Shown here: positions 4,548-64,000 of the stretch, piece after piece
Numbering within the stretch: the stretch's first letter is position 1
How the letters are laid out: every line of letters begins with the position of its first letter
Assembly (NCBI GenBank): GCA_022750195.1
Contig: JAKIWE010000004.1
Coordinates: forward strand, 124,001-188,000
From: Thermoplasmata archaeon
GTDB lineage: Archaea; Thermoplasmatota; Thermoplasmata; Lutacidiplasmatales; UBA184
Direction: 5' to 3'
Length of the DNA: 64,000 nucleotides
Translations under genes and position numbers: made by a program
Notes under the pieces: model-generated
Seen by the model: the letters and a program-made list of their open reading frames with translations, nothing else
The model's database searches: none
What the model was told of the DNA's origin: nothing

Positions 4548-7340
4548 TCACTCCAGGGTCGCGTCGGTCTCCCGCGCCGCCAGGGCCCGAGAGAGCGCTT
4601 CGGGGTCCAGCTCGACGCGCGGGGGCGTCCCCGGTGACGAAGGGACGACCGCGAACACCGTTCCACCGGAGGCTCCGCGGTGCGTCGTGACGCTCCCCTC
4701 CGTCACGAGAGAACCCACCCATTCGGCCACTTCCCCGTCCGTCGGCTGCAGCGATCCGAGTCGCCCTCGGAGCTCTTCGAGCGTCAGGGCTCCGCCGTTC
4801 TCGAGCGCGGAGAGGACTCGGGCCCGTCCGACGGCGAGCCGCTCGAGCTCGTGCTCGGGAACCAGGGCCTCCGCGTCCTCCGTCCGAGGACGACGGCGGC
4901 GCAAGAGCAGGGAGGCGACCCCGGTCCCTCCGAGGATCGCGCCGAGCCCCGCGATCCCGGCCAGCGCGAGCGGAGTGAGCGGTGGGCTCGCTCCGGACGG
5001 GACGTAGATGGTCGGTAACAGCGCCGAACCGAGCGCGCTCTCCACCACGACGGTCCCCCCCACGCCCCCGGGGGCGGTGTAGTTGACCCAGACGGTCGAG
5101 CCTCCGTCGGCGACGAGCACCGAGGACTTGTGCGTGGCGAGCTGCCCGCCGAACTGCGTGCGAACGAACACGTACCCGGAGTCGAGCGCGTTGCCGAACC
5201 GGTCCCCGATGGTGTACAACGTGGCGTTCGTGCGCGCGCCCGAGACGGCCACGCGGGGCTCGGTGAGGGCGAGGTGTCCAAGGTCGGGAGAGACCTCGAC
5301 CACCAGCCCACCGGTCGTCGAGCTGCCGGACGGTCCGATCCCGGTGGTGAAGACGACGACCCACCGGCCGGCGACCGTCGCGGTGAAGGTGAGATTGAGC
5401 TCGCCCAGTCTCCACGCGGAAGCCGGAAGGGCGAGCAGGCCGCCGTTCCCGAGCGGGAACTCGGTCCCGCCGGAGGCGTTGACACCGAGGCCCGCCCCCT
5501 CCGCGCCGGAGGGCCCGGCGACGGTCACGTTCACCGCGACCGCGAACCTCGGAACGCGGTCGCCGAGAACGTTGTCGGCGGCCAGGGTGATCGCCACGGG
5601 CGTGCCCGCCCAGGTGGCGTTGCCGGCGATGGCCTCCGCCACAAGCCGCGTCGCGGGCCCGGGGGCCACGACGAAGGTGGTCGCGTTCGCGACCGTCGTG
5701 CCCAAGCCGTCGCGCACCGTCAGCGTCAGGACGACGGTGCCCGCGAGGAGCGGGGTCACGTTCACGGCGAGCAAGCCGTCCGCGCTCACGGTCCCCGAGG
5801 CGACCGTGCTCGAGGGGCTCGAGAGGTTCCACCAGTACGTCGCGGGGAACAGCCCGCCGGCGAGGACGGCACGCACGGCGACCCGGTCGCCCGCGGTGAC
5901 GTCGTTCGTCGTGGTGATCAGGTCGCTGAGCGACGGGCGGTCGACGACGGTCGTCGTCACCGGTGCCGAGACGTTGGCGCCGCCCGCGTCCCTCACGCTG
6001 GCGTCGCCGAGCCAGACCCCCTTCGGGGGCGCCGCCAGCACGAACGTCCACGCCGTGCCCGGCGATCGGTCGCAGGCGACCCGGCCGTCGCCGACGACGA
6101 GGCACACCGGCGAGAACGGGGCCGTTCCCGTCCCGGTGGCGACCCCGACATGGTAGGTCACCCTCGAGCCCGTGTACGCCCCGACAGGATCGGGGTCGAC
6201 CGTCGGTCCGAGCGGGGCAGCGATGGCGACCGACGGGAAGTGCCACTGGGCCGCCGAGTAGCCGTTCAGGAGCGTCGCCGTCGGCTGGGCCGTGCCCGGC
6301 GCGGTGAAGATGACGATACCGTGGCAGAGGACCGCGACCGTCCCTCCCGGCGTGGAATTGGTGGTGCACGTGAGCGGCACCGAGCCGGTGCCGGGTCCCG
6401 GTGTCAGCGTGGCGGTGTAGAGGTACCCCCCCGACCCGCTCCCGTTCAGCACGACCGTCGCAGGCCAGCCGCTGTCGAGGGCCGTCGGGGAGAGGCCGGC
6501 CGAGTCGATCGACGTCGCCACGGCGGTGAGGCCGAGCGAGACGGGGGCCAGGCTCAGCTCCGCGCCGTCCCACGAGCCGTTCAGGCGTAGCTCGAGGGTT
6601 CCCGGCCCGGGGGCCGAACCCGCCAGGACCGTCACGTTCGACCCTCCCGGGGTGTCGGAGAAGCTCCAGCCGGCGCCTTGCAGCTGCCAGCCGAACTGGA
6701 GCGTCGCGGGCGAGCGCGATCCGTCCGCGGCGACCGGGAAGGCACGCACGTTCGCCGGCGCGCCCGTGCTGACGGTCAGCCGTCCGCCGGGAACCAGGGT
6801 GACCGCGCTCAGCGCGTCGACCCAGGTCATCGACACCTGGCCGTTCGACTGGTTGACCTTGAGGAAGTACCCGGGGGGAGGGCTAGGAGGGGTACCGAAG
6901 GCGAGGTAGCCGTACGGACCGGTATAGTAGGAGCAGTCGGTCGAGCTGCACGAGTCGGCCGGTAGGCTAGCGTTCAGCGAGAACCGGCCGTTCGTGCCGG
7001 TCTGGGTCGTGGTCGTGCCGGTCCGACAGGTGAAGCTGCTCGGGCCGACCTTCGGCGTGTAGTTGAGGAGGTAGTGGTAGGTGACATTGACCGACGCGTT
7101 GGTCGCGGCTGAGGCCGAAAGGGGACCTCCCACGAGGCCGAGATCGCCCGTGTACGCTTTGGCGTCGAGCGCGCCGGGACAGGCGCCTCCGAGGGAGACG
7201 GACGGCGCTGGGCCCCCCGGCGAGGGAGCGGCGTGCGCGCCGGCCGGGATCAAGAGCGCGCCAAGAGCCCACGACGCGAGCAGGATCGTCGCGCCAACGG
7301 CCTTGCGGCGCTGACGAAAGGGAGGGCCGCCGGCGGTCAC
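4548..7340 (-). CDS. large secreted Ig-like surface protein with TM anchor and winged-helix-like tail
   Basis: 930 aa. An N-terminal signal peptide (about 14-38, ending AGAHA) precedes about 740 residues of Ser/Thr/Gly-rich beta-sandwich-like repeats with many N-glycosylation sequons and a few Cys. A hydrophobic helix at about 795-820 is followed by RRRRPR as a stop-transfer signal. The roughly 110-residue cytoplasmic tail (ERLAVGRARVLSALENGGALTLEELRGRL...GSLVTEGSVTT) reads like a winged helix. A surface receptor with an intracellular DNA-binding or protein-binding domain is an inference. The same order of parts recurs in the gene entering the window at 64000. It lies 1.7 kb from the VirD4-like ATPase gene on the same strand. 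Confidence 0.7.
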   Translation of the reverse strand: MTAGGPPFRQRRKAVGATILLASWALGALLIPAGAHAAPSPGGPAPSVSLGGACPGALDAKAYTGDLGLVGGPLSASAATNASVNVTYHYLLNYTPKVGPSSFTCRTGTTTTQTGTNGRFSLNASLPADSCSSTDCSYYTGPYGYLAFGTPPSPPPGYFLKVNQSNGQVSMTWVDALSAVTLVPGGRLTVSTGAPANVRAFPVAADGSRSPATLQFGWQLQGAGWSFSDTPGGSNVTVLAGSAPGPGTLELRLNGSWDGAELSLAPVSLGLTAVATSIDSAGLSPTALDSGWPATVVLNGSGSGGYLYTATLTPGPGTGSVPLTCTTNSTPGGTVAVLCHGIVIFTAPGTAQPTATLLNGYSAAQWHFPSVAIAAPLGPTVDPDPVGAYTGSRVTYHVGVATGTGTAPFSPVCLVVGDGRVACDRSPGTAWTFVLAAPPKGVWLGDASVRDAGGANVSAPVTTTVVDRPSLSDLITTTNDVTAGDRVAVRAVLAGGLFPATYWWNLSSPSSTVASGTVSADGLLAVNVTPLLAGTVVLTLTVRDGLGTTVANATTFVVAPGPATRLVAEAIAGNATWAGTPVAITLAADNVLGDRVPRFAVAVNVTVAGPSGAEGAGLGVNASGGTEFPLGNGGLLALPASAWRLGELNLTFTATVAGRWVVVFTTGIGPSGSSTTGGLVVEVSPDLGHLALTEPRVAVSGARTNATLYTIGDRFGNALDSGYVFVRTQFGGQLATHKSSVLVADGGSTVWVNYTAPGGVGGTVVVESALGSALLPTIYVPSGASPPLTPLALAGIAGLGAILGGTGVASLLLRRRRPRTEDAEALVPEHELERLAVGRARVLSALENGGALTLEELRGRLGSLQPTDGEVAEWVGSLVTEGSVTTHRGASGGTVFAVVPSSPGTPPRVELDPEALSRALAARETDATLE

Positions 7341-9005: not shown

Positions 9006-11579
9006 TCAGCTCTCGTCCGAAGCCCCTTCCGTCCGGATAGGTCGAGCCGCCCGAGCGCCGCGGAGCGTCCAGACCTGGGCCTTCCCGGGGACGAGCCGCT
9101 CCCCGTGCAGCACCGAGCGGATCCGCCGGGCGAGCCGGGGGTCGGCGGCCACGAACAGGGCGAACGCCGCCGCGTCCCTGGCCTTCTCCACGCCGCGACG
9201 GATCCGGTCGGCGCGGAGCGCGCCGGAGACCTCCGCTTCGACGTGGACGTCCCGGCCGCCGAAGCACCGCCACAGCCAGCTCCTCCGCCGGAGGTCGAGG
9301 TACCGGGCCAGCTGCGAAGGGGGCAGGGCCCGCCCTCCCTCGGCGAGCACGCAGCACCGGCCGTCCGGCAGACGGCGGTCGAACCGGCCCTGTCGGACGA
9401 TCTCCAACCGCTCGCCGTGTCGGGCGAACAATCGGAAGACCTCGATCAGGAGCGCGCGGTGCTCCCCGGTTTCGCTCGTCGCCCCGGTCGCTCCCCCCAC
9501 GCCCAGGAACCGAGCCCCGCTCGCGGTGAGCACCACGTCCTCGTCGTCCCCCGCGATCCAGCCGCGCTGCCCGGCGAGTCGGGCGCTCAGAAGCCATGCG
9601 GCCGGGTCGACGGGCTCCGCCTCCTCGCGAGCGACCCGGTCGATCACGGAGCGCAGGGTGATCGCGCCCGGTCCCCGCTCTCTCGCTCCTAGGAGCGCCA
9701 GGAGCAACGTTTCGACTCGGGCCTCCCGGAACGGCGCCGCGCCCGCCGAGGGCTGACCCGCGCCGAACTCGAGCGCCGTCGCCTTCACCATCTCCGTCCA
9801 GGGGCCGGGTCCCTCGACCGGTGGGCCGACCAGCCGCGCGACGCGCAACCCGAGAGGGTCGTCCGGTCGTGCGACGACCGCCTCACCGAACGGAAGCTGG
9901 GGGAGCAGCACGGTCGAGGTCTCCGCCCCGAGCCCCAGCCAGGCGCCGGCCGGGATCGCCCCGCCGCGCGGAGTGCGGAAGACCACATGACGCCCCGCGC
10001 TCCCGACGGCGGCAGCGCGCAGCTCCGGCGCGAGCCGCTCGGCGTACTGCGTCGCGAGGAGCGCGTCGACCCCGAACTTGCGCCCTTCGGCGAGGATCTC
10101 GACGAGCAGTCGGGCCGCGACGGCGTGGGCCTCGTCGAGCACGATGAGCGTCGGCCGTTCCGGAACCGTCGAGCCCGCGCGCGCGGTCAGGGCGAGGTAC
10201 AGTCGTCCGACGAGCAGGGTCGCGGCAAAGCTGCTCCCTTCCGGGCCGAGCTCGCCGATCGGGGCGCGCACCAGGATCGAGCGCCCGGCCGCGAGCTCGT
10301 CGTCGAGCTCGACCGCACCGCCGTCCGGTGCCAGCAGCGCCCGGAGCGGCCCGGTCGCCGCCACCTTCGCGAGCCGGGAGGCGGCCGGCCACAGCAGGTC
10401 CGGCGTGCGCCGTAGCAGCACCGCGAGCTCGTCGAGGAACCGGGCGCTCTCCGGGTCGCGCGTCGCCAGCCGCGCGGCGTCACGCCGTCGCTCGTCGGTG
10501 AGGAGCGCGTAGAGGTCGACGAGGTCGCCCCCCTCGCCCTGGACGATACGGACGAACGCGTCGAAGAGGCGCTCGAGCCGGTACCCCCAGTAGGTCTCCC
10601 CGTTCTCCGCCGAAAGTCGTCGCAGGGCCGCGACCAGGTGGGCCGCCGCACGCTCGGCGCCCGGCCGTTCTCGCCCCGTCACGATGCGGACGCCGATCGC
10701 GCGCTCCGGGCTCGCGGTCGGGTCGAGCGCGAGGCACCGGGCCCGCGCCGCCGGGGCGAGTCGCGCCGCGATCGCCGGCGTGAGGTCGCCGTGCACATCG
10801 ACCGCCACGACCTGCTGACCGCCGGCGATCGCCTCGCTCGCCCGCTCCGCCAGGTAGCTGGTCTTGCCGACCCCCGAAGCTCCCAGGACGATCGTGTGGG
10901 GGAAGGCCCCGGTCGCAGCCGCCCCGATCGGCCGGAAGACCGTGACGGCCCGGACGGCGACCGCGGGGGCCAACGGCAAGGCCGCGCCGGCCTGGCCGAC
11001 GCTCAAGCGGCCGGTGGCGAAGTCGCGACTCACAGCCCTTGTGGAAGGGAGGGCGATCGCCGCGAACCGACGCCGCGTCGCCCATCGGAGGCGCACGCCC
11101 GTGCCTCGAAGGATGCGCCCGGCCGTCGCCTCGTCAACCCCGGTCAGGGCGAGTCGGGTCCGGACCGCGACCGAGACGCCCGGGCCTGGCAGCCAGTGCA
11201 GCTGCAGCACCGCCCGCCCGCGGCCGGCTCCGTCCTCCCACGGTTCCGTCTCCTCCGAGGTCGGTGGGAGCAGGAGCTCCGCGTCGAAGGTCGGCGAGGC
11301 GACCATCGCAAGGTAACGCCAATGGAGACCGTCGCGTCGGGCGATGCCCCGAGCCGGCGCTGGGCCGGAACTGTGGTCGGCCGGCTCGGAGATCGCGCCG
11401 GGGAGGAGGACCACCGCTTCGGGTGCCCCGAGGGTTTGCTCTACAAACGCCCCCGGGGCGGACGGGTCGGCGGCGATCGCCTCGGCGACGCTCCGCAGCC
11501 GCCGCGAGTACAGGTCGGAACCGGTGATCCTGCCGGCCGGGCTACGCCCATCCGGCGACGCTTCACCGGCGATCGGCAT
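9006..11579 (-). CDS. VirD4/TraG-like coupling ATPase with winged-helix and nuclease-like C-terminal domains
   Basis: 857 aa, HerA-VirD4 superfamily. Walker A GASGVGKTS is at about residues 233-241. It is followed by a VAVDVHGDL strand, a YWGYRLERLF segment, RSILVRAPIGELGPEGSS, Walker B LIVLDEAH at about 476-483 and EGRKFGVDALLATQYAERL. This motif order is that of T4SS coupling proteins rather than VirB4. Residues about 600-690 look like a winged helix. The last 160 residues contain LPDGR, then VEAEVSG and a regular helix with Arg/Lys, suggestive of a PD-(D/E)XK-like fold; that part is tentative. It probably pumps or hands DNA to a transfer channel. The T4SS-like operon lies at 58-64 kb. It overlaps the upstream small gene by 17 nt. 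Confidence 0.75.
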   Translation of the reverse strand: MPIAGEASPDGRSPAGRITGSDLYSRRLRSVAEAIAADPSAPGAFVEQTLGAPEAVVLLPGAISEPADHSSGPAPARGIARRDGLHWRYLAMVASPTFDAELLLPPTSEETEPWEDGAGRGRAVLQLHWLPGPGVSVAVRTRLALTGVDEATAGRILRGTGVRLRWATRRRFAAIALPSTRAVSRDFATGRLSVGQAGAALPLAPAVAVRAVTVFRPIGAAATGAFPHTIVLGASGVGKTSYLAERASEAIAGGQQVVAVDVHGDLTPAIAARLAPAARARCLALDPTASPERAIGVRIVTGRERPGAERAAAHLVAALRRLSAENGETYWGYRLERLFDAFVRIVQGEGGDLVDLYALLTDERRRDAARLATRDPESARFLDELAVLLRRTPDLLWPAASRLAKVAATGPLRALLAPDGGAVELDDELAAGRSILVRAPIGELGPEGSSFAATLLVGRLYLALTARAGSTVPERPTLIVLDEAHAVAARLLVEILAEGRKFGVDALLATQYAERLAPELRAAAVGSAGRHVVFRTPRGGAIPAGAWLGLGAETSTVLLPQLPFGEAVVARPDDPLGLRVARLVGPPVEGPGPWTEMVKATALEFGAGQPSAGAAPFREARVETLLLALLGARERGPGAITLRSVIDRVAREEAEPVDPAAWLLSARLAGQRGWIAGDDEDVVLTASGARFLGVGGATGATSETGEHRALLIEVFRLFARHGERLEIVRQGRFDRRLPDGRCCVLAEGGRALPPSQLARYLDLRRRSWLWRCFGGRDVHVEAEVSGALRADRIRRGVEKARDAAAFALFVAADPRLARRIRSVLHGERLVPGKAQVWTLRGARAARPIRTEGASDES

Positions 11580-11940
11580 CGACTCCGCCGGCGCGGGCGA
11601 GCAGCTCGTCGATCGCGTCGGCGAGCGAGCGGAGCCGGTTGATGCGAGCGTACGCCCGCAGTTCGTCGGTCGTCACCCGCGTCGGGACGGCGCGGTCGGT
11701 GCTCCACAGTCGGAGCGTCCAGTACGTTTCGCCGGTCGGCCCCCGATGCAGGGTCGCCCACGGTCGATGCGCGACCGTGAGCGGTACTCGGACGTGGCCC
11801 AGGCAGTCGACTCCCGACGGCGTCGTCGGGGTCGTTCGTTCGGCAGGAACGGGTTCTTCGAGCCGTTCGGCTCGTCGCAGTTGCGCGGTCACAAAACTCT
11901 CCGCGCGCCGACGTCGCCCCGAGCCAGGCCCGGTCAACAT
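11563..11940 (-). CDS. small protein of unknown function upstream of the coupling ATPase
   Basis: 125 aa, not recognised. It is mainly soluble and Arg-rich, with a plausible alpha/beta core (VDCLGHVRVPLTVAHRPW, YWTLRLWSTDR) and a helical C-terminus (ELRAYARINRLRSLADAIDELLARAG). The 17-nt overlap with the ATPase gene suggests translational coupling and a shared task. No TATA box is evident upstream, so the start at 11940 is uncertain. Coding is supported by its position and natural-looking composition only. Confidence 0.5.
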   Translation of the reverse strand: MLTGPGSGRRRRAESFVTAQLRRAERLEEPVPAERTTPTTPSGVDCLGHVRVPLTVAHRPWATLHRGPTGETYWTLRLWSTDRAVPTRVTTDELRAYARINRLRSLADAIDELLARAGGVDADRR

Positions 11941-12628: not shown

Positions 12629-13108
12629 TCAGCGCCCGGCGTGACCGGCGGCCTCGGCGACGACGATGCGGGGCAGCTCGCCCTGGATCGCCGGGGTCCG
12701 CGCTGCCGGGTCGTTCGCGCGGCTGACCCGGGTCCGGGGAAGGAGCCACCGCTCGCCCCAGAGGCGAAGCTCCCGAGCCGCGGGGGCGAGGCCCAGTCCC
12801 ATCTCCGTGAGAGAGTACACGACGGTGAACGGCCGGGTGCTGACGACGGTCCGCTGGACGACGCCCTGCCCTTCGAGGAACTTCAAGGTCGCGCTCAGCG
12901 TCTTGGCGTTGAGCCGGGCGTCGGAGCGCAGCAGCTCGCTGAAGCGGCGGGGGCCTTCGAGGAGCCGGTGGACGATCGCGAGGCGCCACTCCGTGCCGAT
13001 CACGCCGACCGCGGCGATCACGGGACAGAGCCCGCGCCCCTGGCTGGTGCACGGCTCGTTCGCCGGATGACTGGCGAGCTCACGAGCGGTCGGTCGACGG
13101 CCGGCCAT
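12629..13108 (-). CDS. HxlR-family winged-helix transcriptional regulator
   Basis: 159 aa. The pattern is classic HxlR: an early LCPVIAAVGVIGTEWRLAIVHRLLEGPRRFSELL (about residues 32-65), then KTLSATLKFLEGQGVVQR recognition helix and wing, and a VYSLTEMGLGL end. The Cys near the N-terminus is one the family often uses for redox or electrophile sensing. The open frame runs further upstream, but the ATG at 13108 fits the family start and lies 35 nt from a TATA box. A striking TTATCAA/TTGATAA operator lies just upstream, so autoregulation is likely, together with control of the divergent gene at 13231. Confidence 0.85.
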   Translation of the reverse strand: MAGRRPTARELASHPANEPCTSQGRGLCPVIAAVGVIGTEWRLAIVHRLLEGPRRFSELLRSDARLNAKTLSATLKFLEGQGVVQRTVVSTRPFTVVYSLTEMGLGLAPAARELRLWGERWLLPRTRVSRANDPAARTPAIQGELPRIVVAEAAGHAGR

Positions 13109-13139
13109 GGAAAACCTGTCGCCGCACGGAGGGGAGGAG

Positions 13140-13188
13140 AGATATAGCTTGCGTCCTGTTATCAACTTGATAAAGAGAACTTGATAAC
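13140..13188. promoter_or_regulatory. HxlR promoter with three-half-site palindromic operator
   Basis: The minus-strand TATA box GCTATATC lies at 13140-13147, 35 nt before the HxlR start. Next to it is the perfect palindrome TTATCAAcTTGATAA at 13159-13173, and a third half-site TTGATAA at 13181-13187 on the side of the divergent gene. The third half also forms an outer inverted repeat (GTTATCAA/TTGATAAC) with the first. The site lies between the two start codons and could control both genes. Confidence 0.6.
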
Positions 13189-13230
13189 CGCGATACACCA
13201 CGAGGGGAGGCTCCACCCTCCGCCGCGCGC

Positions 13231-13854
13231 GTGTACGTTTTCCTGCGCGCGGTCTCCCTCGGAACCGTGACGCTTCCCCCCTCCGAGCTCGAGCTCAGCG
13301 TGGAGCGCGAGGTGGTCGACGGTTCGAGCGGGAGCCCCCGTCGCGTCCGCCTCGTCGCACGCCTTCCTCACGACGCTCCGGCCGGGGGCGTCGACCCCGC
13401 CCAGCTCTCCGAGTGGGTCGCCGAGCTCGGCCGCCTCCTGGACGCCACGCTCGAGAAGCTGCCCGGGGCACGCGCTCCGACCCGCGCGGACCGGAGCCTG
13501 GAGGATCTCGTGGAAGCGTACCACCCGCGTCAGGTCGAGCTCGTCGAGCTGCTCCGGGAGGAGGGAGAGCTCACGACCGCGGAGCACGAGCGGCTCCGCC
13601 AGTACCTCGCGATCCCCACCGCAGCCAGCGTCGTGCCTCCGAGCCCCCCGGTAGGACGGTCGATCGCGGAGGCACCGCTCGAGAGGGACCGTGCTCCCAG
13701 CACGCCCCGGCCCGTACCGGAGCTGCTGGCGCTGTACCAGATCCAGTCGCTCAAGCAGGCCGGGGCGGTCCGCGCGCGCCGGCAGATCTCCTACGAGGAG
13801 TACATGGCGATGAAGCGCCACTTCTCGGCGGGCGAACCCCATTCGCCGAGCTGA
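13231..13854 (+). CDS. unknown soluble protein with SHOCT-like C-terminal motif
   Basis: 207 aa, family not recognised. The N-terminal part is a beta-rich segment with acidic/basic alternation. The middle is helical (about 75-125), followed by a Pro-rich linker. The last 40 residues (LLALYQIQSLKQAGAV...ISYEEYMAMKRHF) resemble the short SHOCT oligomerisation motif. The GTG at 13231 starts the open frame; a GTG at 13267 is an alternative. It is divergent from the HxlR gene across a palindromic operator and so is a candidate target. It is convergent with the gene ending at 13862. Confidence 0.55.
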   Translation: MYVFLRAVSLGTVTLPPSELELSVEREVVDGSSGSPRRVRLVARLPHDAPAGGVDPAQLSEWVAELGRLLDATLEKLPGARAPTRADRSLEDLVEAYHPRQVELVELLREEGELTTAEHERLRQYLAIPTAASVVPPSPPVGRSIAEAPLERDRAPSTPRPVPELLALYQIQSLKQAGAVRARRQISYEEYMAMKRHFSAGEPHSPS

Positions 13855-13861
13855 CGGCCCG

Positions 13862-15250
13862 CTACGGCGGGGGCGAAGCGCGTCGCGGCACCAGCCCCAC
13901 GAGCAGGTGGCCGACCTCGGTGATCCCGGTCCGCATCGCGAACCGGCCGGAGATCGTGGCCGCGGCCGCGTCGGTCGCCCGCACGAATCCTCCTGGGGCG
14001 TTGGCGTCGGTCGGTGCCCCGCCCGCGGTTCGGAAGACGCCGAGCGCGACGTGACGGTGCCGCAGCGCCTGGGCGGAGGCGGAGAGGAAGCTTCGCTCCG
14101 CCCCGGCGGGATCGATCCCCTCCACGACGTCCAGGGTACTCGCGCCGAACACCGCGACCCCTCGACTCTCCCGGGGACCGCCTAAGCTCGAGCCCAATCG
14201 GCTGAGCGACGCCGCCCACCCCGGCGGGAGTCCGATCCCCTCGTCCGCGGCCTCCGCGGCGGCCTCTTCGCTCGCGAGCGGTGCGGCGGCGCCGCCGACG
14301 GCGCTGGCGACCTCTTCGACGCGCTGGGCGAAGGTCGATGCGATCTGCTCGGGGCTCCCGACGAACCGGACGCCCGCGAGACGCGGGATCCAGCGACGTT
14401 CGGCGAGCGTTTGGCTCGCCTCCCGGAGCGCGTCCGGCGGTTCGGCGACGATGACCGGGCGGTTCGGGCTCGGGCCGGCCAGCGCCGAGGCGCTCGGGTC
14501 GACGCGTCGTGCGAGCGTAGGGCCGAAGAGCTCCTGCACCCCCAATCGCGCGACGAGGGCGCGGACCTCCTCCCGCTCGCTTCGCGCGATTGGCCACGTC
14601 GGGCCGCCGGCGACGAGCGAGGCCGGTTCGCCGCGGCTCACCACGAGCGTGACGACCGTCGCTGGCGTCGCGGCGGCGAGGGCGCCCCCGACGGCGCCGC
14701 CGGCGACGACGCGGACGAAGCGGGCGAGCTCGTGGGCGCTCGCCCCTTTCGCGCGCAGGTGGGTCAGGCCGTCCGCCCAGGCGGCGGCGCCGACGCCTTC
14801 GAGAGGATCGGCGAGAGCCAGCAGCGCGCCGGAGGAGAGGAGCACGAGGAGAAGGTCGGACGCCTCGAGACCCCCGGCCATCTCGAGCGCGGTCGCCGCG
14901 ACGCCGTCGCCGGCCTCGCGGAAAGCCTGCCGCGCGACGACCCGAGTGGAGCGGAACGGCACCTCCGGGGGCAACGGCTCCGGTCCGGCGACGAACCCTT
15001 GCGTGACGCGCTCGTCGAGCGCGGCGACCGTTCCAAGCGCCAGGGAGGTCGCGGCCGAGCCTACGGCCAGGAAGGCGATCTCACGGAACTGGGCGACCGG
15101 GAGGAAACGGTTGCCGAGGCGCACCGTCGGACCCTGACGCCGCAACGCCGAGCGGACACCGCGGTACGCATCGGCCCCCGAGACCGCGGCCCGGAACGCG
15201 GCGTCGAACATGCCGACGAACCCGGCGAGACGGTCGTCGGCCTCCGGCAC
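13862..15250 (-). CDS. degenerate GckA/MOFRL glycerate-kinase-like protein
   Basis: About 462 aa. The order of blocks follows type-2 glycerate kinase (DUF4147-MOFRL): IAFLAVGSAATSLA near residue 60, DLLLVLLSSGALLALADP, ELARFVRVVAGGAVGGALAAA, TVVTLVVSRGEP.SLVAGGPT, then a MOFRL-like end (FGASTLDVVEGIDPAGA and TGITEVGHLLVGLV). At the first block functional enzymes read G-K-A; here it is G-S-A, and the Gly-rich GGGSA loop is altered. It is therefore probably not an active kinase. It is the third gene of the flavoprotein operon, 48 nt after the previous stop if the GTG at 15250 is used; an ATG at 15211 is possible. Confidence 0.6.
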   Translation of the reverse strand: MPEADDRLAGFVGMFDAAFRAAVSGADAYRGVRSALRRQGPTVRLGNRFLPVAQFREIAFLAVGSAATSLALGTVAALDERVTQGFVAGPEPLPPEVPFRSTRVVARQAFREAGDGVAATALEMAGGLEASDLLLVLLSSGALLALADPLEGVGAAAWADGLTHLRAKGASAHELARFVRVVAGGAVGGALAAATPATVVTLVVSRGEPASLVAGGPTWPIARSEREEVRALVARLGVQELFGPTLARRVDPSASALAGPSPNRPVIVAEPPDALREASQTLAERRWIPRLAGVRFVGSPEQIASTFAQRVEEVASAVGGAAAPLASEEAAAEAADEGIGLPPGWAASLSRLGSSLGGPRESRGVAVFGASTLDVVEGIDPAGAERSFLSASAQALRHRHVALGVFRTAGGAPTDANAPGGFVRATDAAAATISGRFAMRTGITEVGHLLVGLVPRRASPPP

Positions 15251-15297
15251 GAGCCGGCCGGGGCGCGACGGGAGATAGGGTTGGCCCCGCTCGGCGC

Positions 15298-16464
15298 TCA
15301 GCCCAGCTGGAGCCCCTCGGCCGGACGGGGTCCGCCCGGCGTGAGGAACCGCCCCGGGGAGAACAACGCCGGGTCGAGGTCGGTGCGCTCGCCGAGGACC
15401 GACCGTGCAACGCGTAAGGTGGTGGCGGGCGCGAGCATGAACCCGTGGCCGCCGAAACCGTTCGCCTGGAAGAAGCCGGCGAGGCGAGGGTCCTCGCCGA
15501 TCACCGGGAGCCCGTCCGGCGTGTCGTCGTAGAAGCCCGACCAGGCGCGGAGGACCCCCAGCGAACCCAGCGCGGGGACCAGCCCGACCATCGCCCGCGC
15601 GAACGCACGAAGGAAGGCGAGCGAGGTCGGCATGCCGGCCTGGGTGCCGGGCGCGTGGTGCAAGGTCAGCCCGCCGACGATCTCCCCGCGCATCGTTTGG
15701 CTGAAGTAGAGGCCGTCGCCGAGCCGGACGACCATCGGGTCGAGGAACGGCTTGAGCGGCTCGGTCGCGAGGATCTCGTGGCGGCTCGCGACGTTCGGCG
15801 ACGACAGGGAGGCCCGGGCCGCGAACTCTCCGGACCAACCCCCGGCGGCGTTGACCACGCACGAGGTCGTGAGCTCCCCCGCGTCCGTGAGCACGCCGGT
15901 GACCCGGGGGCCGTCGGTGCGCACCCCTCGAGCCTCGAGCCCCAGCACGACCTCGCCCCCGAGCCGGCGGACCGCCTCGTAGACCCCCCAGACCGCGGGG
16001 AACGGGTACAGGGTGCCGTCGCTCCGGAGGAACGCTCCCCCGACCACGCCGGCCGTCGAGAGCTCCGGCGCGACCTGGACGACGCCCGCGGGGTCGAGCA
16101 TCCGCGCGTCGAGCCCTTCCGAGCGCACGACCGCGTGGACGGCGCGGAGGCGGGCGAGGTCGTTGTCGGATCCCGCGAGGAACAGATAGCCGCCTTGGCG
16201 GAACCAGATGTTGTAGCCGAATTCGCTGCCGAACCGGCGGTACGCCGCGACGCTTTCGCGGGCCAGGCGTACGGTCGCCCGGGTCTCCCACTGCTGTCGA
16301 ACGCCCCCGCCGTTCCTCCCGGAAGCGCCGCTCGAGAGAAAGCCCCGGTCGAGGACGAGTACCGGGCCCGCCCCGGCCCGAAGCAGGTGGTAGGCGGTGA
16401 AGAGCCCGACGATCCCCGCTCCGACGATGACCGTGCGGTAGTCGCGGCGGGACGGGGTGTTCAC
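15298..16464 (-). CDS. FAD-dependent amine oxidoreductase, SoxB / proline-dehydrogenase-beta-like (DAO fold)
   Basis: 388 aa, usual length for SoxB-type subunits. The Rossmann FAD motif VIVGAGIVGLFTAYHLLRAG is at about residues 12-31. It is followed by the DAO signature SSGASGRNGGGVRQQW, a substrate-domain IWFRQGGYLFLAG and a C-terminal GFGGHGFMLAPATTL. The family oxidises secondary amines (sarcosine, proline, hydroxyproline); the substrate here is unknown. The GTG at 16464 overlaps the stop of the upstream SoxA-like gene as GTGA, which indicates translational coupling and a two-subunit enzyme. Confidence 0.85.
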   Translation of the reverse strand: MNTPSRRDYRTVIVGAGIVGLFTAYHLLRAGAGPVLVLDRGFLSSGASGRNGGGVRQQWETRATVRLARESVAAYRRFGSEFGYNIWFRQGGYLFLAGSDNDLARLRAVHAVVRSEGLDARMLDPAGVVQVAPELSTAGVVGGAFLRSDGTLYPFPAVWGVYEAVRRLGGEVVLGLEARGVRTDGPRVTGVLTDAGELTTSCVVNAAGGWSGEFAARASLSSPNVASRHEILATEPLKPFLDPMVVRLGDGLYFSQTMRGEIVGGLTLHHAPGTQAGMPTSLAFLRAFARAMVGLVPALGSLGVLRAWSGFYDDTPDGLPVIGEDPRLAGFFQANGFGGHGFMLAPATTLRVARSVLGERTDLDPALFSPGRFLTPGGPRPAEGLQLG

Positions 16465-58208: not shown

Positions 58209-59918
58209 CTAGCCGGTTCGGACCGTTGAGCCCGCGGCCGTAGGGAGCGCCGAGGGGAGTCGGAGGGCGCGGGTCAAGAAGTCGAACTCGGGCGTGGCCG
58301 CGACGACCGCCAGGGGGAGATGTGACGGGCCGAGCCGGAGCAACCCCTCCGCGTACCCCGCCTCCGCCGGCAGGCGGGCTCGCGGGAGCCAGTCGGACTC
58401 GACCGCCGTGAGCTGGAAGAACTCCCGGGTCGGTTCGGAGACCTCCGGGAGCCGGAGGAGGAGGGTCGCGGAGAGATTCCGCAACAACGACCGCCCGCTG
58501 TCGGTCGTGAGGAAGTCGTCGGGGTTCTGGCTGAGCAGCAGCAGACCCGCGTCGTAATGCCGCACATGCCGCACGATCCGGTCCAGGAACTCGATGGTCG
58601 CCGGGTGACGGGTGAGGAGGTGCGCTTCGTCGACCACGACGAGCGTCGGGCCGGGGGCGGCCCGCAGGCGTCCGTACACCGCCTCGAGAAGGTAGGCGAG
58701 GTGGAACGGGAGGTGGGAGGGGTCCGCGCCGGCGAGGTTGATCACGAGCGGGTCGGCCGAGAGGTCGACCGTCGTCGGTCCGTCAAGGTGCAGCAGCGGG
58801 CCGTGGAGGAACAGCTCCAGGAACTGGTGGAGGCGGCGAGCCGCTGCGCCCTCCCCGGACGGGAGCACCGCGGCGAGATCCGAGAAGGTCGGGGCCCGGT
58901 CCAGGGAGCTCCGGTACAGGGTATCGACCGCGCTCTCGAGCAACGCGGACTCCTCATCGGAAAGGGTCGGGAACAGCGCGCGGACCATGGCGACGACGTT
59001 CGCCGCCTTCGCCCGCCGATCGCCGCCGGTGGTCGCCGGGTCGAGCGGGTTCACGCGGGCCTCACCCTCGGGTCCCAGGGTCACGACCGCTCCGCCGAGC
59101 GCCGGCGCTAGGCGCGTGAACTCGCCCAGGGGGTCGATGAAGGTGAGCGAGACACCGTGGGTCATCCAGCGGCTCCGCAGCGCCCAGAGCGCGGCCGCGA
59201 ACGTCTTGCCGGAGCCGGTGGTCCCGAAGACCCCCCAGGAGTAGCTCCCGTGGAGCCACCGGTTCACGATCACCGGCGCCGCGTCGTCGAGCAGCAGGCC
59301 GACCAGGATGCCGCCCGGCTCGGCGATCGATTCGTCGACGAACGGGAAGAACGCCGCCGCCCCCTCGGTTGAGAGGAGGTGCCAGTACCCGGCGGGTCGG
59401 CCGTCGCCCGGAGGGAACTCGGGAGGAGCCACCACCCGGACCGTATCGAACGCGGGCGAGCGGGTCCGTAGTCCCAACGCGGCGGCGCGCCGCTCGAGGT
59501 CGCGACGGATCCTCTCGGCGACGACCGGGCGGCGGTCGACTCCGTGGAGCGAGAGCCCGACCCGCCAGAGGTCCTGCTCCCGAGCCGCGACGCGTTCGGC
59601 AAGCTCCGCTGCGGCCGCGGCCTCGACCCGGAGGCGTGCCGGGCGCCCGCCCCGGACGGTCCCCCCGCTCTCGAGCTCGGCCTCGGCCCCGACGTCCGCG
59701 GCGTGCAGGAGCTCGAGCGCCTCGGTGGAGGCGAACCGGTGGAGCTGGAGGCGGAGCTCGCCGGCGCTGGAGGTCGGCACGAGCCGACCGACGAACCCGA
59801 ACGGCACCTCCGACGGCAGCGCCGAGACCAGCAGCGGGGCGTCGACGCCGAACCGTCGGCGGATCCAGGAGACCGTCTCGATGGGGGGCGCGCGGAGCCC
59901 TCCCGGACGCTCCGTCAC
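58209..59918 (-). CDS. VirB4/HerA-like motor ATPase of a type IV secretion-like system
   Basis: 569 aa. Walker A WGVFGTTGSGKTFAAAL is at about residues 230-246, then FIDPLGEF, Walker B LVVVDEAHLL at about 426-435, and the sensor segment LLLLSQNPDDFL. Between them FPTLSDEESALLESAVDTLY is characteristic of VirB4/TraC/CedB ATPases. The N-terminal 220 residues carry a partial VirB4-type domain; a further VirB4 N-terminal-like portion sits on the gene at 60262-61044. It should energise pilus or channel assembly. The ATG at 59918 overlaps the previous stop as ATGA. It ends the operon. Confidence 0.85.
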   Translation of the reverse strand: MTERPGGLRAPPIETVSWIRRRFGVDAPLLVSALPSEVPFGFVGRLVPTSSAGELRLQLHRFASTEALELLHAADVGAEAELESGGTVRGGRPARLRVEAAAAAELAERVAAREQDLWRVGLSLHGVDRRPVVAERIRRDLERRAAALGLRTRSPAFDTVRVVAPPEFPPGDGRPAGYWHLLSTEGAAAFFPFVDESIAEPGGILVGLLLDDAAPVIVNRWLHGSYSWGVFGTTGSGKTFAAALWALRSRWMTHGVSLTFIDPLGEFTRLAPALGGAVVTLGPEGEARVNPLDPATTGGDRRAKAANVVAMVRALFPTLSDEESALLESAVDTLYRSSLDRAPTFSDLAAVLPSGEGAAARRLHQFLELFLHGPLLHLDGPTTVDLSADPLVINLAGADPSHLPFHLAYLLEAVYGRLRAAPGPTLVVVDEAHLLTRHPATIEFLDRIVRHVRHYDAGLLLLSQNPDDFLTTDSGRSLLRNLSATLLLRLPEVSEPTREFFQLTAVESDWLPRARLPAEAGYAEGLLRLGPSHLPLAVVAATPEFDFLTRALRLPSALPTAAGSTVRTG

Positions 59919-60265
59919 CGCCTCGACCCCCGAGCACGGGCGCGTCGTGCGAGGTTCCAGAGCACGACCGTCATCCCCGCCAAGATCGGCCCGCGCACGG
60001 CGAACCAGGTACCCGGCACGCCGAGCGCCACCGACCAGCCGACCGCAGCCGCGGTGCCGCCGATCATCCAGTCGGGCCAGCCCTTCGAAGCCGACGGGGC
60101 CGACCGTCGGACCACGGCCCAGGCGACGAACGCGAGTGCCCCGAGCGTCGCCGTGAGCCCGACGAAGTACGGCACGACGACCGAGAGGGCCCCAGCTAGG
60201 ACCGTGAAACGGGCGATCGTGGTGAGGAGGTCGGCCGGGACGGGAGGGGCCGCGGCGGCGGTCAC
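59915..60265 (-). CDS. small membrane protein of the T4SS-like operon
   Basis: About 116 aa with three or four hydrophobic helices (about 14-32, 35-52, 68-85, 90-105) and a basic C-terminus. No family is assigned; size and position are those of minor T4SS membrane components. The GTG at 60265 makes a GTGA overlap with the previous stop and is preferred to the ATG at 60286. Its own stop overlaps the ATPase start by 4 nt. Confidence 0.6.
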   Translation of the reverse strand: MTAAAAPPVPADLLTTIARFTVLAGALSVVVPYFVGLTATLGALAFVAWAVVRRSAPSASKGWPDWMIGGTAAAVGWSVALGVPGTWFAVRGPILAGMTVVLWNLARRARARGSRR

Positions 60266-61044
60266 GAGCTCCTCCCCGGGCCCCATCCGAACGCGACGAG
60301 GCCCTCCGTCAGCGCCGGCCCACGGAGCCGCTCCGAGCCGACCCCAAGGGCGTCGAGCCGCTCGTGAAGGTCGCGCAGGCGTCGCTCGAGCTGGAGCGAG
60401 GCGCTCGGGGAGCCCGAGGGTCCGCCGACCGCCAGCAGGACGTCGCGACGTCGGCGGTGGCGGCCGAGCAGTCGGACCATCTCGACGTAGCCGTCGCGGG
60501 CCCGTTGTTCGTCGGAGCCGAGAGTGACAGGGAGGGGTACGAACGGCCGGGTCCCCAGCGGGAGGCCGCGCACCAGCAGGGCAACGCCGCCGTCGAGGGA
60601 GCCGAGGAGCTGCCGATAGGCCGTGAACAGCTCGCGGGCGTTCGCGGGCGGGAGGAAGGCGACCGGGATCCCCTCGGCGCGAAGCATGCCGACCAGGACG
60701 CCCCCGGGGACGGCGGCGAGGGCCCGACCGCTCGCGATCGACGGACGATGGCGAGCCCGGGGCCTACCGCCGGCGCCACCCCGTCGACGCCAGGTCCACC
60801 CCAGGTAGTCGGCGAGGCGACGATCGAAGGGAGGGCCGTCGGTGGGACGGACCCCCACGACGAAGCCCACGGCGAGGAACGGCAGCCACAACCAGGGGCT
60901 GACAAAGCCCGCGACGACCGCTCCAGCCGCCGCGTAGGCGAGGAACTTGAGGGCGTCGCGGCCGGAGGGGAACGGTCCGAGCGAGGGAGAACGGGGCACG
61001 GCGGCCTGGAGCCGGAGCACCGGCGGAGCCGTAGGGTCGGTCAT
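60262..61044 (-). CDS. VirB3/PrgI-like membrane protein fused to a VirB4 N-terminal-like domain
   Basis: 260 aa. Two close TM helices (about residues 31-65, FLAYAAAGAVVAGFVSPWLWLPFLAVGFVVGV) match the VirB3/PrgI layout. The C-terminal 150 residues resemble the substrate domain at the start of VirB4/TraC: ELFTAYRQLLGSLDGGVALLVRGLPL, a Tyr-Glu-Met helix, and LERRLRDLHERLDALGV. The VirB4 function thus appears split over two genes. The long frame upstream overlaps the VirB6-like gene and is spurious; the ATG at 61044 overlaps its stop as ATGA. Confidence 0.7.
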   Translation of the reverse strand: MTDPTAPPVLRLQAAVPRSPSLGPFPSGRDALKFLAYAAAGAVVAGFVSPWLWLPFLAVGFVVGVRPTDGPPFDRRLADYLGWTWRRRGGAGGRPRARHRPSIASGRALAAVPGGVLVGMLRAEGIPVAFLPPANARELFTAYRQLLGSLDGGVALLVRGLPLGTRPFVPLPVTLGSDEQRARDGYVEMVRLLGRHRRRRDVLLAVGGPSGSPSASLQLERRLRDLHERLDALGVGSERLRGPALTEGLVAFGWGPGRSS

Positions 61045-62186
61045 GGGTCGGTGGCCGCGCGCGAGGCCACGCCTCCCCCGCTGCGGACGGGCGGGAATCG
61101 GTCGCGACTGCGCACGGCGTGGACGAGGCGGGGGACGTGGCGGAACAGGTGATGGGCGCCCCATCCGATCGCCTCCGAGCTCAGCGCCGGGATCGTCGCG
61201 GGGAGCGCGGTGCTCGTCGCGGTCCGGGCCAACGAGCTGGCGGTCGCTCCGCCCCCGCCGGCCCGACCGCCGGCCGCGACCGGCCGAAGGTACCCGCCTC
61301 CTCCCGCGGACGCGAGGAGCAGGCCGCGCTGGATCCCGCCGACGACCACCGACCCGCCGCCGGCGAACCCGGCCTCGCGCAGCTGGGCCCCGGCGAGGCT
61401 GATGAGGGAGGGGGCGGAGACGGCGACGGTGAGGTACCCGAGCAGCAGGAGGACGCTCGGCGAGCCGACGGCGAGCTCGAGCGGGACGACGACGACGCAC
61501 GGAAGGAAGCTGAGCTCGATGAACAACAGCCAGGCGCGCCGGGCCAGCGGGGCGAAGGTCGGGATCGGCCAGAGCAGGGTCGCCACCGGCAGGAGGACGA
61601 GGAGCACCGCGAGCATCGCGTCGCGCAGCGCAACGGCCGCCGCGAGGATCATCACGAGCGAGAACAGCAGGAACGTGACGACGAAGGCGAGCACGCCGTT
61701 GTCCCACGAGAAGCCGATCTCGCCGTACCCGCCGAGGTTCCCCCAGTGCTGCCACGCGCCCTGGTCGAACCCCTCGATCACCGGGTAGAGGCCTCCCGCG
61801 AGACCGAAGAGAGCGCCGGCGACGGGGAGCGTGAAGTTCGCGAGGACCGCGGCGACCACGAGCCGGGGGAGCAGGGCATGCGTCCGCTCGGCGAGGCGGG
61901 GCGAGGCGGCGCGGGCAAGGTAGAGCACGCCCACGCCGACCGCGACCAGCGCCAGCGCGGGGTCGACCACGTGCACGACGAGGAAGCTGCTGAAAGCGCC
62001 GGCGACGGCGAGGAAAGCGCCGGAACCGCCGCCGGTCGGAGCGAGCGTCGGGTACAGCGCCGCGGGAGCGAGCTCGGGGACGAGGAGGTTGTCGTAGGTG
62101 GGACCGAGGACCGCGGCGAGGAGCCCGGTGAGTCCGACGAAGATCCCGAAGAGGATCGACTGGATCACCTGGTTGAGGTCGACCAT
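61041..62186 (-). CDS. VirB6/TrbL/CedA-like polytopic channel protein
   Basis: 381 aa with about seven hydrophobic helices up to residue 265. The block LRDAMLAVLLVLLPVATLLWPIPTFAPLARRAWLLFIEL (about 188-226) is the recognisable VirB6/TrbL pattern shared with archaeal CedA-like proteins. A Gly/Ala-rich cytoplasmic or extracytoplasmic tail ends the protein. It would form the inner-membrane DNA or pilin passage. It starts 19 nt after the VirB2-like gene and overlaps the next by 4 nt. Confidence 0.75.
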   Translation of the reverse strand: MVDLNQVIQSILFGIFVGLTGLLAAVLGPTYDNLLVPELAPAALYPTLAPTGGGSGAFLAVAGAFSSFLVVHVVDPALALVAVGVGVLYLARAASPRLAERTHALLPRLVVAAVLANFTLPVAGALFGLAGGLYPVIEGFDQGAWQHWGNLGGYGEIGFSWDNGVLAFVVTFLLFSLVMILAAAVALRDAMLAVLLVLLPVATLLWPIPTFAPLARRAWLLFIELSFLPCVVVVPLELAVGSPSVLLLLGYLTVAVSAPSLISLAGAQLREAGFAGGGSVVVGGIQRGLLLASAGGGGYLRPVAAGGRAGGGGATASSLARTATSTALPATIPALSSEAIGWGAHHLFRHVPRLVHAVRSRDRFPPVRSGGGVASRAATDP

Positions 62187-62205: not shown

Positions 62206-62583
62206 TCAGCCGCCGACGACCCACTTGGCGAGCGCGAAGAGGAGGCCGCTCAGAGCTGCGACGAACAGCAAGGTCCCCACGAGGGCGTCGCGCGCTCGGT
62301 CCTTCGCTTGCACCTTCTTGCTGAGGTCGTTCGAGAACCAGCTCAGCGCGACCCGGGTCCAGACGAGGGCGAGGAGCCCCCCACCGGCGGCGCCCACCAG
62401 CGTCACCAGGCGGCCGACGGCGGCGGAGAAGTTGCTCACGACCGAATCGTTCGCCGTCGCGGCGGGAAGGTGGAGGGGGAGAGAGGTCGAAGGCAGGTCG
62501 GTGAGCGGGGCGGCCGCCGCTAGCAGGAGGGCGACCGACAGCAGCGCGGTCGCTCCGGTCCCTGGTCCACGGGAGGCCGTCAT
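62206..62583 (-). CDS. VirB2-like two-helix pilin
   Basis: 125 aa. A signal-peptide-like hydrophobic stretch (about 11-27) is followed by a 25-residue spacer. Two TM helices (about 55-78 and 100-121) are separated by a short charged loop, SNDLSKKVQAKDRARDA. This hairpin with a basic cytoplasmic loop is the layout of VirB2/TrbC and of archaeal Ced/Ted pilins. The ATG at 62583 overlaps the upstream stop as ATGA, which excludes the longer in-frame extension. Confidence 0.65.
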   Translation of the reverse strand: MTASRGPGTGATALLSVALLLAAAAPLTDLPSTSLPLHLPAATANDSVVSNFSAAVGRLVTLVGAAGGGLLALVWTRVALSWFSNDLSKKVQAKDRARDALVGTLLFVAALSGLLFALAKWVVGG

Positions 62584-64000
62584 GCCGGTGAGCCCTCCGG
62601 CTCGGAGGCACCTCCCAGCGCCGATCCCGAAGGCCCTCCCTCGTCCCAGAAGAAGAGCGGCTCCTCGTCCGGGCCTGGCTCGGTCCGAACCCGGTGCGAC
62701 CGTTGCCATCGGCGGAGCGCGTCGTCGACCTGCGTTTCGGAGAGGCCGTCGTCCTCCGCCAGGAAGTAGAGCGTGGCCCGGTCGAGGCCCTCAGACTCCT
62801 GCAGGTAGCGACGTACGGCGTGCATCGCCTCCGCCGGGCTCCCCGGGCCTTCGCGGCGTCGGGTGCGGCGCCGGCGACGTGGCAGCAGGATGGCGGCGGC
62901 GACGCCCCCGGCTCCGAGGAGACCGACCAGCCAGGTGGGGTCCGAAACCGCGGGGGGCGAGGGGGAGGACGGCCCCGGCGCCGTCGGAGCCGGGACGGTG
63001 GGACCGACGGTCGCGACGACGGTGAGAACCGACTCGCCGCGACCCCCGAGCAGGTCGGTCACCAGAAGTCGGAGCTCGACGTAGCCGGCCGAGCGGGGAG
63101 TAAGCCCGAGCTGGACGGGGCCGGCGGTCGAGAGGTTGCCGACGAGGCGCTCGCCGTCGGTCGAAGTGAGCGCATAGGCATACGGTGGGTCGCCCCCGCC
63201 GAACTCAGCCGAAAGCACCGCCGGCGTCCCGACGACCAGGCCGGAGGGCGGCAGCAGCGAGAGCAGGAGCGGGGGGAGCACGCGGACCGTAAGGTTCGCC
63301 GAGGCCCACACCCCGGCCGCGTCCCTCGCCGTCGCGAGGAAGGTGAGGTTGCCACCGGCGAGGGCGGTCGCCTCCCAGCCGAACGCCCCGGAGCCGTTGA
63401 GGACGCCGGTCGACGGCCCCGTCGAGTTCACCGGCAGCGAGGCGGTCAAGCTCCAGCTGACCGGCGGGGAGCCACCGATCAGCTCACCGCCCACGCCGAA
63501 CCGTTCTCCGGGTTCCGAGAGCAACGCTCCGCTCGTCAGCGTGATCGACGGCGGCGGGTAGATCGCGGCGACCGGAGCCGTCGCGGCGAGCCGAACTCCG
63601 AGAGCGTCCTCGGCCGTGACGGTCACCCACAGCGTGCCCGCCAAGCCCGTCGTGACCGCCTCGAGGTACCAGCCGTCCGCCGGGAGCTCGGCGCTCCGGT
63701 TCTCCCCCCCTCCGACCGGAGCCCACCCGACGGAGAACGGAGGCACCGCCCCGGTGAGGTTCACGACGAACGGCACCGCCCGCCCCACATCTCCGACCGG
63801 CGAGCCGGTTCCGAGGACCAGGCGCAGGGGCCCCGCGACCGCGAGCGTAGCATCCGAGCCGACGCTCGTGCCGCCGAGGTCCGTCACCACGACGCGGATG
63901 TCGACGTTTCCCGGCAGCTGCGGCGTGACGGTCCAGTTCGGCCCGATCCCCGTTAGCCCGATCGAGCTCGTCCAGCTGACGAAGTACGGCGCCTCTCCTC
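62580..64000 (-). CDS. Ig-like surface protein with anchor and cytoplasmic helical tail (5' end beyond the window)
   Basis: At least 473 residues; the frame stays open to the window edge, so the N-terminus is outside. Several Ig/PKD-like units (PPFSVGW, PPVSWSLT, PPYAYALT strands) are followed by a Pro/Ser linker, one TM helix (TWLVGLLGAGGVAAAILL) and RRRRRTRRR. The roughly 85-residue tail (PAEAMHAVRRYLQESEGLDRATLYFLAEDDGLSETQVDDALRRW) looks like a helix-turn-helix. It is the first visible gene of the T4SS-like operon and could be a recognition or adhesion protein. It shares this design with the gene at 4548-7340. Confidence 0.7.
   Translation of the reverse strand, partial: GEAPYFVSWTSSIGLTGIGPNWTVTPQLPGNVDIRVVVTDLGGTSVGSDATLAVAGPLRLVLGTGSPVGDVGRAVPFVVNLTGAVPPFSVGWAPVGGGENRSAELPADGWYLEAVTTGLAGTLWVTVTAEDALGVRLAATAPVAAIYPPPSITLTSGALLSEPGERFGVGGELIGGSPPVSWSLTASLPVNSTGPSTGVLNGSGAFGWEATALAGGNLTFLATARDAAGVWASANLTVRVLPPLLLSLLPPSGLVVGTPAVLSAEFGGGDPPYAYALTSTDGERLVGNLSTAGPVQLGLTPRSAGYVELRLLVTDLLGGRGESVLTVVATVGPTVPAPTAPGPSSPSPPAVSDPTWLVGLLGAGGVAAAILLPRRRRRTRRREGPGSPAEAMHAVRRYLQESEGLDRATLYFLAEDDGLSETQVDDALRRWQRSHRVRTEPGPDEEPLFFWDEGGPSGSALGGASEPEGSPA

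Follow-up and report, generated by a model that had tools for sequence, protein, structure and literature searches.

A Thermoplasmata coupling-type ATPase with a predicted winged helix and PD-(D/E)XK-like domain, and its counterparts in archaeal conjugative plasmids

The window analysed here is a stretch of 64,000 nucleotides (G000:C47:124001-188000) from a 2.45-Mb genome bin of a Thermoplasmata archaeon. It carries a gene for an 857-residue ATPase, a small partner gene and a VirB4-like operon (Table 1). Inspection of the 857-residue frame showed that all motifs listed in the preliminary description (GASGVGKTS, YWGYRLERLF, LIVLDEAH, GRKFGVDALLATQY and PDG...VEAEVSG) were present. At a cut-off of E ≤ 1e-30 an orthologue was found in 70 of the 91 genomes of the focal family, far more than chance would give. 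In four genomes (L010, L009, G060 and G039) the ATPase frame contained one in-frame stop each (TAA or TAG), which may reflect decay or assembly error. The overlapping 125-residue partner had also been pointed out before, and at 31 loci a related ORF precedes the ATPase gene (E ≤ 7.4e-12); up to 40 listed loci were searched, and those with fewer than 500 bases upstream were skipped. This recurrence indicates that the partner is a real conserved gene for a small protein, for which Pfam, NCBIfam, PHROGs and PADLOC gave no match.

Table 1. Genes and domains of the window discussed in the text
Feature	Position	Strand	Basis or remark
Coupling ATPase of VirD4/TrwB type; winged helix and PD-(D/E)XK-like region predicted at the C-terminus	9006..11579	-	857 aa
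Motor domain, about residues 228-605	9765..10898	-	Invariant columns; TrwB match over residues 96-596
Motor motifs: Walker A G233..K239; Walker B D482 E483; RKFG; ATQY	within 9765..10898	-	
Winged-helix domain, about residues 612-693	9501..9746	-	Predicted structure and fold matches
PD-(D/E)XK-like domain (predicted), about residues 694-846	9042..9500	-	H707, P738 D739, E781, E783, K799
Partner gene of 125 codons, which overlaps the start of the ATPase frame	11563..11940	-	Conserved upstream ORF
VirB4-like ATPase of chromosomal T4SS-like operon, 569 aa	58209..59918	-	NCBIfam NF045971 E 2.1e-38, below curated cut-off
c15, small membrane protein of VirB4 operon	59915..60286	-	Conserved order
c11, membrane hairpin and VirB4 N-terminal-like part	60262..61020	-	VirB4-fused in paralogous loci L142, L162, L163, L164
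c3, protein of 7-8 TM segments, VirB6/CedA-like	61041..62186	-	Position and TM count only; no Pfam match
c4, small 3-TM protein, VirB2/CedA1-like	62206..62583	-	Position only
c0, large surface protein of VirB4 operon	62580..64000	-	Runs past window end; compare L104 8580-10835

Comparison of 63 loci from named records gave the usual gene order c6-c5-c9-c8-MarR-ATPase-LigT-(HhH-GPD)-c20. Truncated loci showed part of this order, and L062, L075, L080, L085 and L090 deviated from it. The ATPase has a ThpR-like gene as neighbour, and in many loci a gene for an HhH-GPD glycosylase-like protein. At most of the 63 loci it lies in one and the same chromosomal block, and it is a core gene, not a mobile-element gene. 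Also conserved beside it is a 930-residue surface-type protein with a C-terminal membrane segment and a short tail (4548-7340, minus strand), to which c0 of the VirB4 operon looks similar.

For prediction of the full-length structure, 51 sequences from the window and related loci were aligned; the model has a mean pLDDT of 84.8. In the VIA comparison, the top solved fold match of the motor was TrwB (1e9s_F; Z 27.5, rmsd 4.0, 368 residues aligned). Further matches were the Legionella DotL coupling complex (Z 25.9), DndH-C (24.5) and VirB4 (24.4), whereas HerA and the other families apart from VirD4, VirB4 and DndH reached 21.2 at most. Because TrwB outranked HerA and the others, the predicted model places the motor among coupling ATPases of VirD4/TrwB type, with a TrwB-type ring fold, as had been proposed from the motifs. 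The Walker residues G233, K239, D482 and E483 were invariant in the alignments of ATPase homologues. The Pfam and NCBIfam matches of the 857-residue protein were weak (TrwB, HerA, TraD and CedB/CedD); it scored 20.4 bits with Pfam TrwB_AAD_bind against a curated cut-off of 20.5, which was exceeded by its relatives L131, L142, L124, L125, L128 and L136. By hydropathy scan, no candidate segment for an N-terminal membrane anchor was found in 48 of the 51 homologues. Coupling proteins devoid of an anchor are described as a recognised class (PMC7431656), so that an anchor is not obligatory.

When residues 612-850 were folded alone, the pLDDT was 92.1. Residues 612 to about 693 resembled winged-helix regulators with Z of about 10 (up to 10.4, VIA), in keeping with the winged helix described earlier, and such matches took up the whole VIA list for the C-terminal model. 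Past residue 693 or so, DSSP of the predicted model gave a helix, short strands, a strand, a helix and a strand; judged from this order, the topology is like the alpha-beta-beta-beta-alpha-beta core of PD-(D/E)XK enzymes. Foldseek returned no match at E ≤ 0.001 for the C-terminal model in the PDB or BFVD. FokI ranked second among the weak matches (E 0.026), and nuclease-named and RPB5 entries, all weak, occurred among 50 viral rows. For the C-terminal region there was no Pfam match, and further family libraries gave nothing useful; relaxase families were absent from the Pfam matches of the full protein at E ≤ 0.01.

Residue conservation is the stronger argument for a nuclease-like domain. It was assessed in an alignment of 18 Thermoplasmata rows (A4), which does not include L152 or the truncated sequences L106 and L127; L085 and L136 are one gene of one genome, so that the number of distinct sequences is 17 in A4 and 29 in the wider comparison of 30 rows below. 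H707, P738, D739, E781 and E783 were invariant in all 18 rows, down to 21% identity. Over A4 and the wider comparison, PD and ExE were invariant or nearly so, and a lysine (K799) was usually present on the following helix, displaced from the usual ExK place. Metal sites with ExE or histidine occur in other PD-(D/E)XK enzymes. A pattern search for the nuclease motif missed real cases (for example L142, L131 and L128), which were later anchored by eye; L162 (G084:C29) was not anchorable in this way and was recovered by the nuclease-domain profile. Taken together, the predicted topology and the invariant residues bear out the earlier suggestion of a PD-(D/E)XK-like fold: the C-terminus almost certainly consists of a winged helix and a PD-(D/E)XK-like domain with a PD...ExE site, and this domain is likely to be a catalytically active nuclease.

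Two candidate identities for the C-terminal domain were not supported. For Replic_Relax (PF13814), the best Pfam E value was 0.024, in one of the 18 rows, and the hhalign probability was 0.1; L128 scored 12.2 bits where the cut-off is 25.3, compared with 125.9 bits for an Embleya control. For NurA, the hhalign probability of the profile was 0.19.

A tblastn search of plasmid records, with relatives as queries, retrieved coupling proteins encoded on plasmids of archaea. Those of Halorussus, Halobacterium hubeiense, Haloprofundus and Haloferax gibbonsii matched the nuclease profile with E values of 1e-13 to 1e-17 in small test sets, and comparison of the Halobacteria and Thermoplasmata domain profiles by hhalign gave a probability of 98.1 (E 6.9e-14). 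The plasmid proteins of Sulfolobales and Thermococcus gave a weak HMM match, with Q...PD...ExE...K in register in all seven examined. The hhalign probability of their profile was 32.0 alone and 76.5 (E 2.2e-5) against the joint profile; the score of the latter comparison was 36.8, and 50 column shuffles scored 14 or less. D739, E781 and E783 were identical in all 30 rows, which span four archaeal groups, and Q730 was found in 28. Halalkalicoccus has AD instead of PD, and the alpha-A histidine is missing from the Sulfolobales and Thermococcus sequences. In pHGQ25, pNOB8 and pKEF9, the stretch immediately preceding the domain matched winged-helix families.

With the pTC query, 17 of 27 plasmid records matched over at least 80% of the protein, which were those of Sulfolobales and Thermococcus nautili. 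pNOB8 and pKEF9 were typed as conjugative, with relaxase MOB_Unknown. In Haloferax pHGLR3, the motor-nuclease gene comes right after a gene annotated as transfer complex protein, which by our own reading is VirB4-like. The T. nautili record is of strain 33-3 (103,230 bp), and we infer that it is the pT33-3 (103 kb) of a review (PMC12857230), which states that the VirB4- and VirD4-like genes of pT33-3 are required for transfer. Of two bacterial controls, Sulfitobacter VirD4 was not reported with the nuclease profile and Embleya VirD4 was at noise level. Judged from these alignments, a build of motor, winged helix and PD...ExE is common to the conjugative-plasmid coupling proteins of Sulfolobales, Thermococcus and Halobacteria. 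Searches of the open-licence literature turned up no paper that describes a nuclease domain in the coupling proteins of archaea.

In the focal genome, the ATPase gene lies 46.6 kb from the VirB4-like gene, close to the distance given at first. The operon order c0-c4-c3-c11-c15-VirB4 recurred in the loci compared, some genes not always being called. In paralogous loci, c11 and VirB4 form a single protein, and c11 was therefore identified as the N-terminal part of VirB4. The ATPase gene is tail to tail with the VirB4 operon at four of the 63 loci (L034, L061, L083 and L088). Since three of these have a common far flank, that of L088 being cut by a contig end, a single rearrangement probably gave rise to all four. 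A paralogous system, whose proteins are longer, has the motor-nuclease gene directly after VirB6-like and VirB4 genes in the same orientation at L142 and L162, although at L142 a small predicted gene intervenes; L165 shows VirB4 and the motor only. Gene order thus supports a link of the motor-nuclease architecture with VirB4/VirB6-type genes. The VirB4-linked paralogous type was also observed in the focal genome (L106 3-2549, on C19) and at L206, where a tyrosine-recombinase-like gene is nearby and the paralogue may be mobile.

Co-occurrence, the other line by which the link to VirB4 and VirB6 had been expected to appear, proved to be a weak test. In the 91 family genomes, many of which are incomplete bins, 58 had both the ATPase (E ≤ 1e-30) and VirB4 (E ≤ 1e-15), 12 the ATPase only, 16 VirB4 only and 5 neither; the absences do not coincide, and within the family there was no association beyond chance. 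As both genes are near-core, their co-presence is no useful evidence, and linkage counts instead. Within the same genus, 26 genomes were at least 90% complete; four of them have the ATPase without VirB4 (G001, G013, G039 and G058) and three VirB4 without the ATPase (G032, G051 and G074). G105 has a VirB4/VirB6-like operon and no motor-nuclease gene. In this closed genome of 1,486,778 bases, five tandem genes, each ending in a c4-like domain (L139, G105:C1:1006000-1024000; 12826-17685), adjoin VirB6-like, c11-like and VirB4 genes and are possibly an array of pilin-like fusions.

The nuclease-domain profile matched 77 of 150 genomes, 70 of them in the focal family and the others being G092, G101, G112, G121, G122, G130 and G132. 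Most hits were part of a long VirD4-like frame; G121 and several others were truncated by contig ends, and in G092 the domain appears to be split over two frames. Another VirD4-like type in the same genomes ends in a short wH-like tail that lacks the nuclease motif (L107, L140 and L143-L158). It includes L107 9588-11228 of the focal genome (C11), and many copies of it adjoin recurring genes of about 200-260 and 370 residues. A search of phage records with a paralogue gave no match. T4SS genes in Thermoplasmata had been noted earlier in Cuniculiplasma (PMC5155288).

We propose that, with somewhat better than even probability, the 857-residue protein serves a chromosomally encoded, Ced-like type IV system for DNA exchange as its coupling motor and brings its own end-making nuclease. 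It would form a hexamer at a VirB4/VirB6-like channel, the winged helix would bind DNA, and the nuclease would nick, or cut and trim, DNA to yield a strand or end that the ring could pump. The fused nuclease would do the work of a relaxase without the covalent protein-DNA link of the bacterial enzymes, and would take the role proposed for HerA-NurA in Ced/Ted systems. That the motor works with VirB4 is probable; whether the nuclease prepares the transferred DNA is evenly poised. Searches for two relaxase families in the 91 family genomes gave no match to PF03432, the control of which matched in Lactococcus, and matches to PF08751 in two, one over the cut-off and one below it. This near-absence agrees with a fused nuclease in place of a relaxase. 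The only over-cut-off TrwC-type match, G004:C158:176-586 (L173), lies on what is possibly a foreign contig in the bin.

The distribution of NurA bears on this proposal and on its strongest rival alike. Pfam NurA matched 11 of 41 genomes, none of the focal genus. A profile from ten class members matched 31 of 150 genomes, all outside the focal family, and in this class-wide survey none of the 77 nuclease-domain genomes had NurA. Among the 59 genomes outside the family, none had both, 7 had the domain only, 31 NurA only and 21 neither (hypergeometric probability of about 0.004, calculated by hand for lineages that are not independent). In the class-wide NurA survey and in that of the nuclease domain, genomes with a match came first, and absence elsewhere was taken from that ordering. 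Within family f9, G121, the sole member with the domain, is without NurA, and five other members have it; HerA genes with no adjacent NurA were retained in the three genomes inspected. The exclusion fits the HerA-NurA strand-making proposal for Ced/Ted (PMC9905601) and, equally, a stand-alone DNA end-resection machine that acts in repair, replaces HerA-NurA and is unrelated to transfer. Such a repair machine would also suit a chromosomal core gene beside ThpR-like and often HhH-GPD glycosylase-like genes, and the retained HerA. We nevertheless consider it unlikely: the motor is TrwB-like rather than HerA-like, the domain is present in conjugative-plasmid coupling proteins and in a VirB4-linked paralogue, and the excluding lineages are few, with G081 (97% complete) having neither domain nor NurA.

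It might also be supposed that the nuclease is degenerate and that the C-terminal domain is only a dock for DNA or a substrate. Known coupling proteins bear varied C-terminal domains (PMC7434980), and the displaced lysine and the histidine missing in Sulfolobales would suit a dock. But the constancy of D, E and E in the 30 rows fits metal binding better than docking, and a mere dock is distinctly improbable. An anti-phage ATPase-nuclease, suggested by PADLOC (mad8, E 3.8e-13; DndH, 3.3e-4) and by DndH-C among the structural matches, is very improbable indeed, since these matches cover the shared ATPase only, mad8 matches the VirB4 gene about equally, and the gene belongs to the core and keeps a constant position instead of occurring in variable islands.

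The way in which archaea ready their DNA for conjugation or exchange is still debated, and archaeal conjugative elements are stated to lack a recognised relaxase (PMC9905601, PMC6563490 and PMC12857230). In the motor-nuclease we see a good candidate for the missing DNA-preparing enzyme of archaeal cell-to-cell transfer. We tentatively extend this proposal across archaea, such that the conjugation motor would carry a DNA-processing nuclease as relaxase counterpart in plasmids and would have been domesticated in Thermoplasmata, with NurA dispensable. A nuclease site inside the coupling proteins of pNOB8, pKEF9 and Thermococcus would make the relaxase question testable by two point mutations.

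Among known systems, TrwB/VirD4 coupling proteins share with the focal protein the ring ATPase fold, the Walker motifs, the RKFG/ATQ region and the VirB4 link, but the focal protein has no N-terminal membrane anchor and has in addition a winged helix and a nuclease-like domain. In the coupling proteins of pNOB8, pKEF9, T. nautili 33-3 and the haloarchaeal plasmids, motor, winged helix and PD...ExE follow one another as in the focal protein; they are plasmid-borne and longer, with extra C-terminal regions, whereas the focal gene belongs to the chromosomal core. HerA-NurA is likewise a hexameric ATPase acting with a nuclease on DNA ends, but its motor is less similar and the NurA profile has no match to the focal nuclease domain. 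Replic_Relax has a PD...E pattern similar by eye. In an Embleya plasmid (L221 1238-4756), a Replic_Relax gene of its own, the PF13814 control mentioned above, comes immediately after VirD4; this order resembles the archaeal fusion, but the genes are separate and homology with the focal domain is unsupported. The Ced/Ted systems of Thermoproteota resemble the focal operon in their chromosomal VirB4, VirB6-like and small VirB2-like genes, a likeness supported for VirB4 and drawn from position and TM count only for VirB6 and VirB2. In the available texts of PMC9905601 and PMC11868833, the enzyme proposed to process their DNA is HerA-NurA or a ParB-like nuclease and no nuclease-bearing VirD4 is described, and in this the motor-nuclease of Thermoplasmata differs from them.
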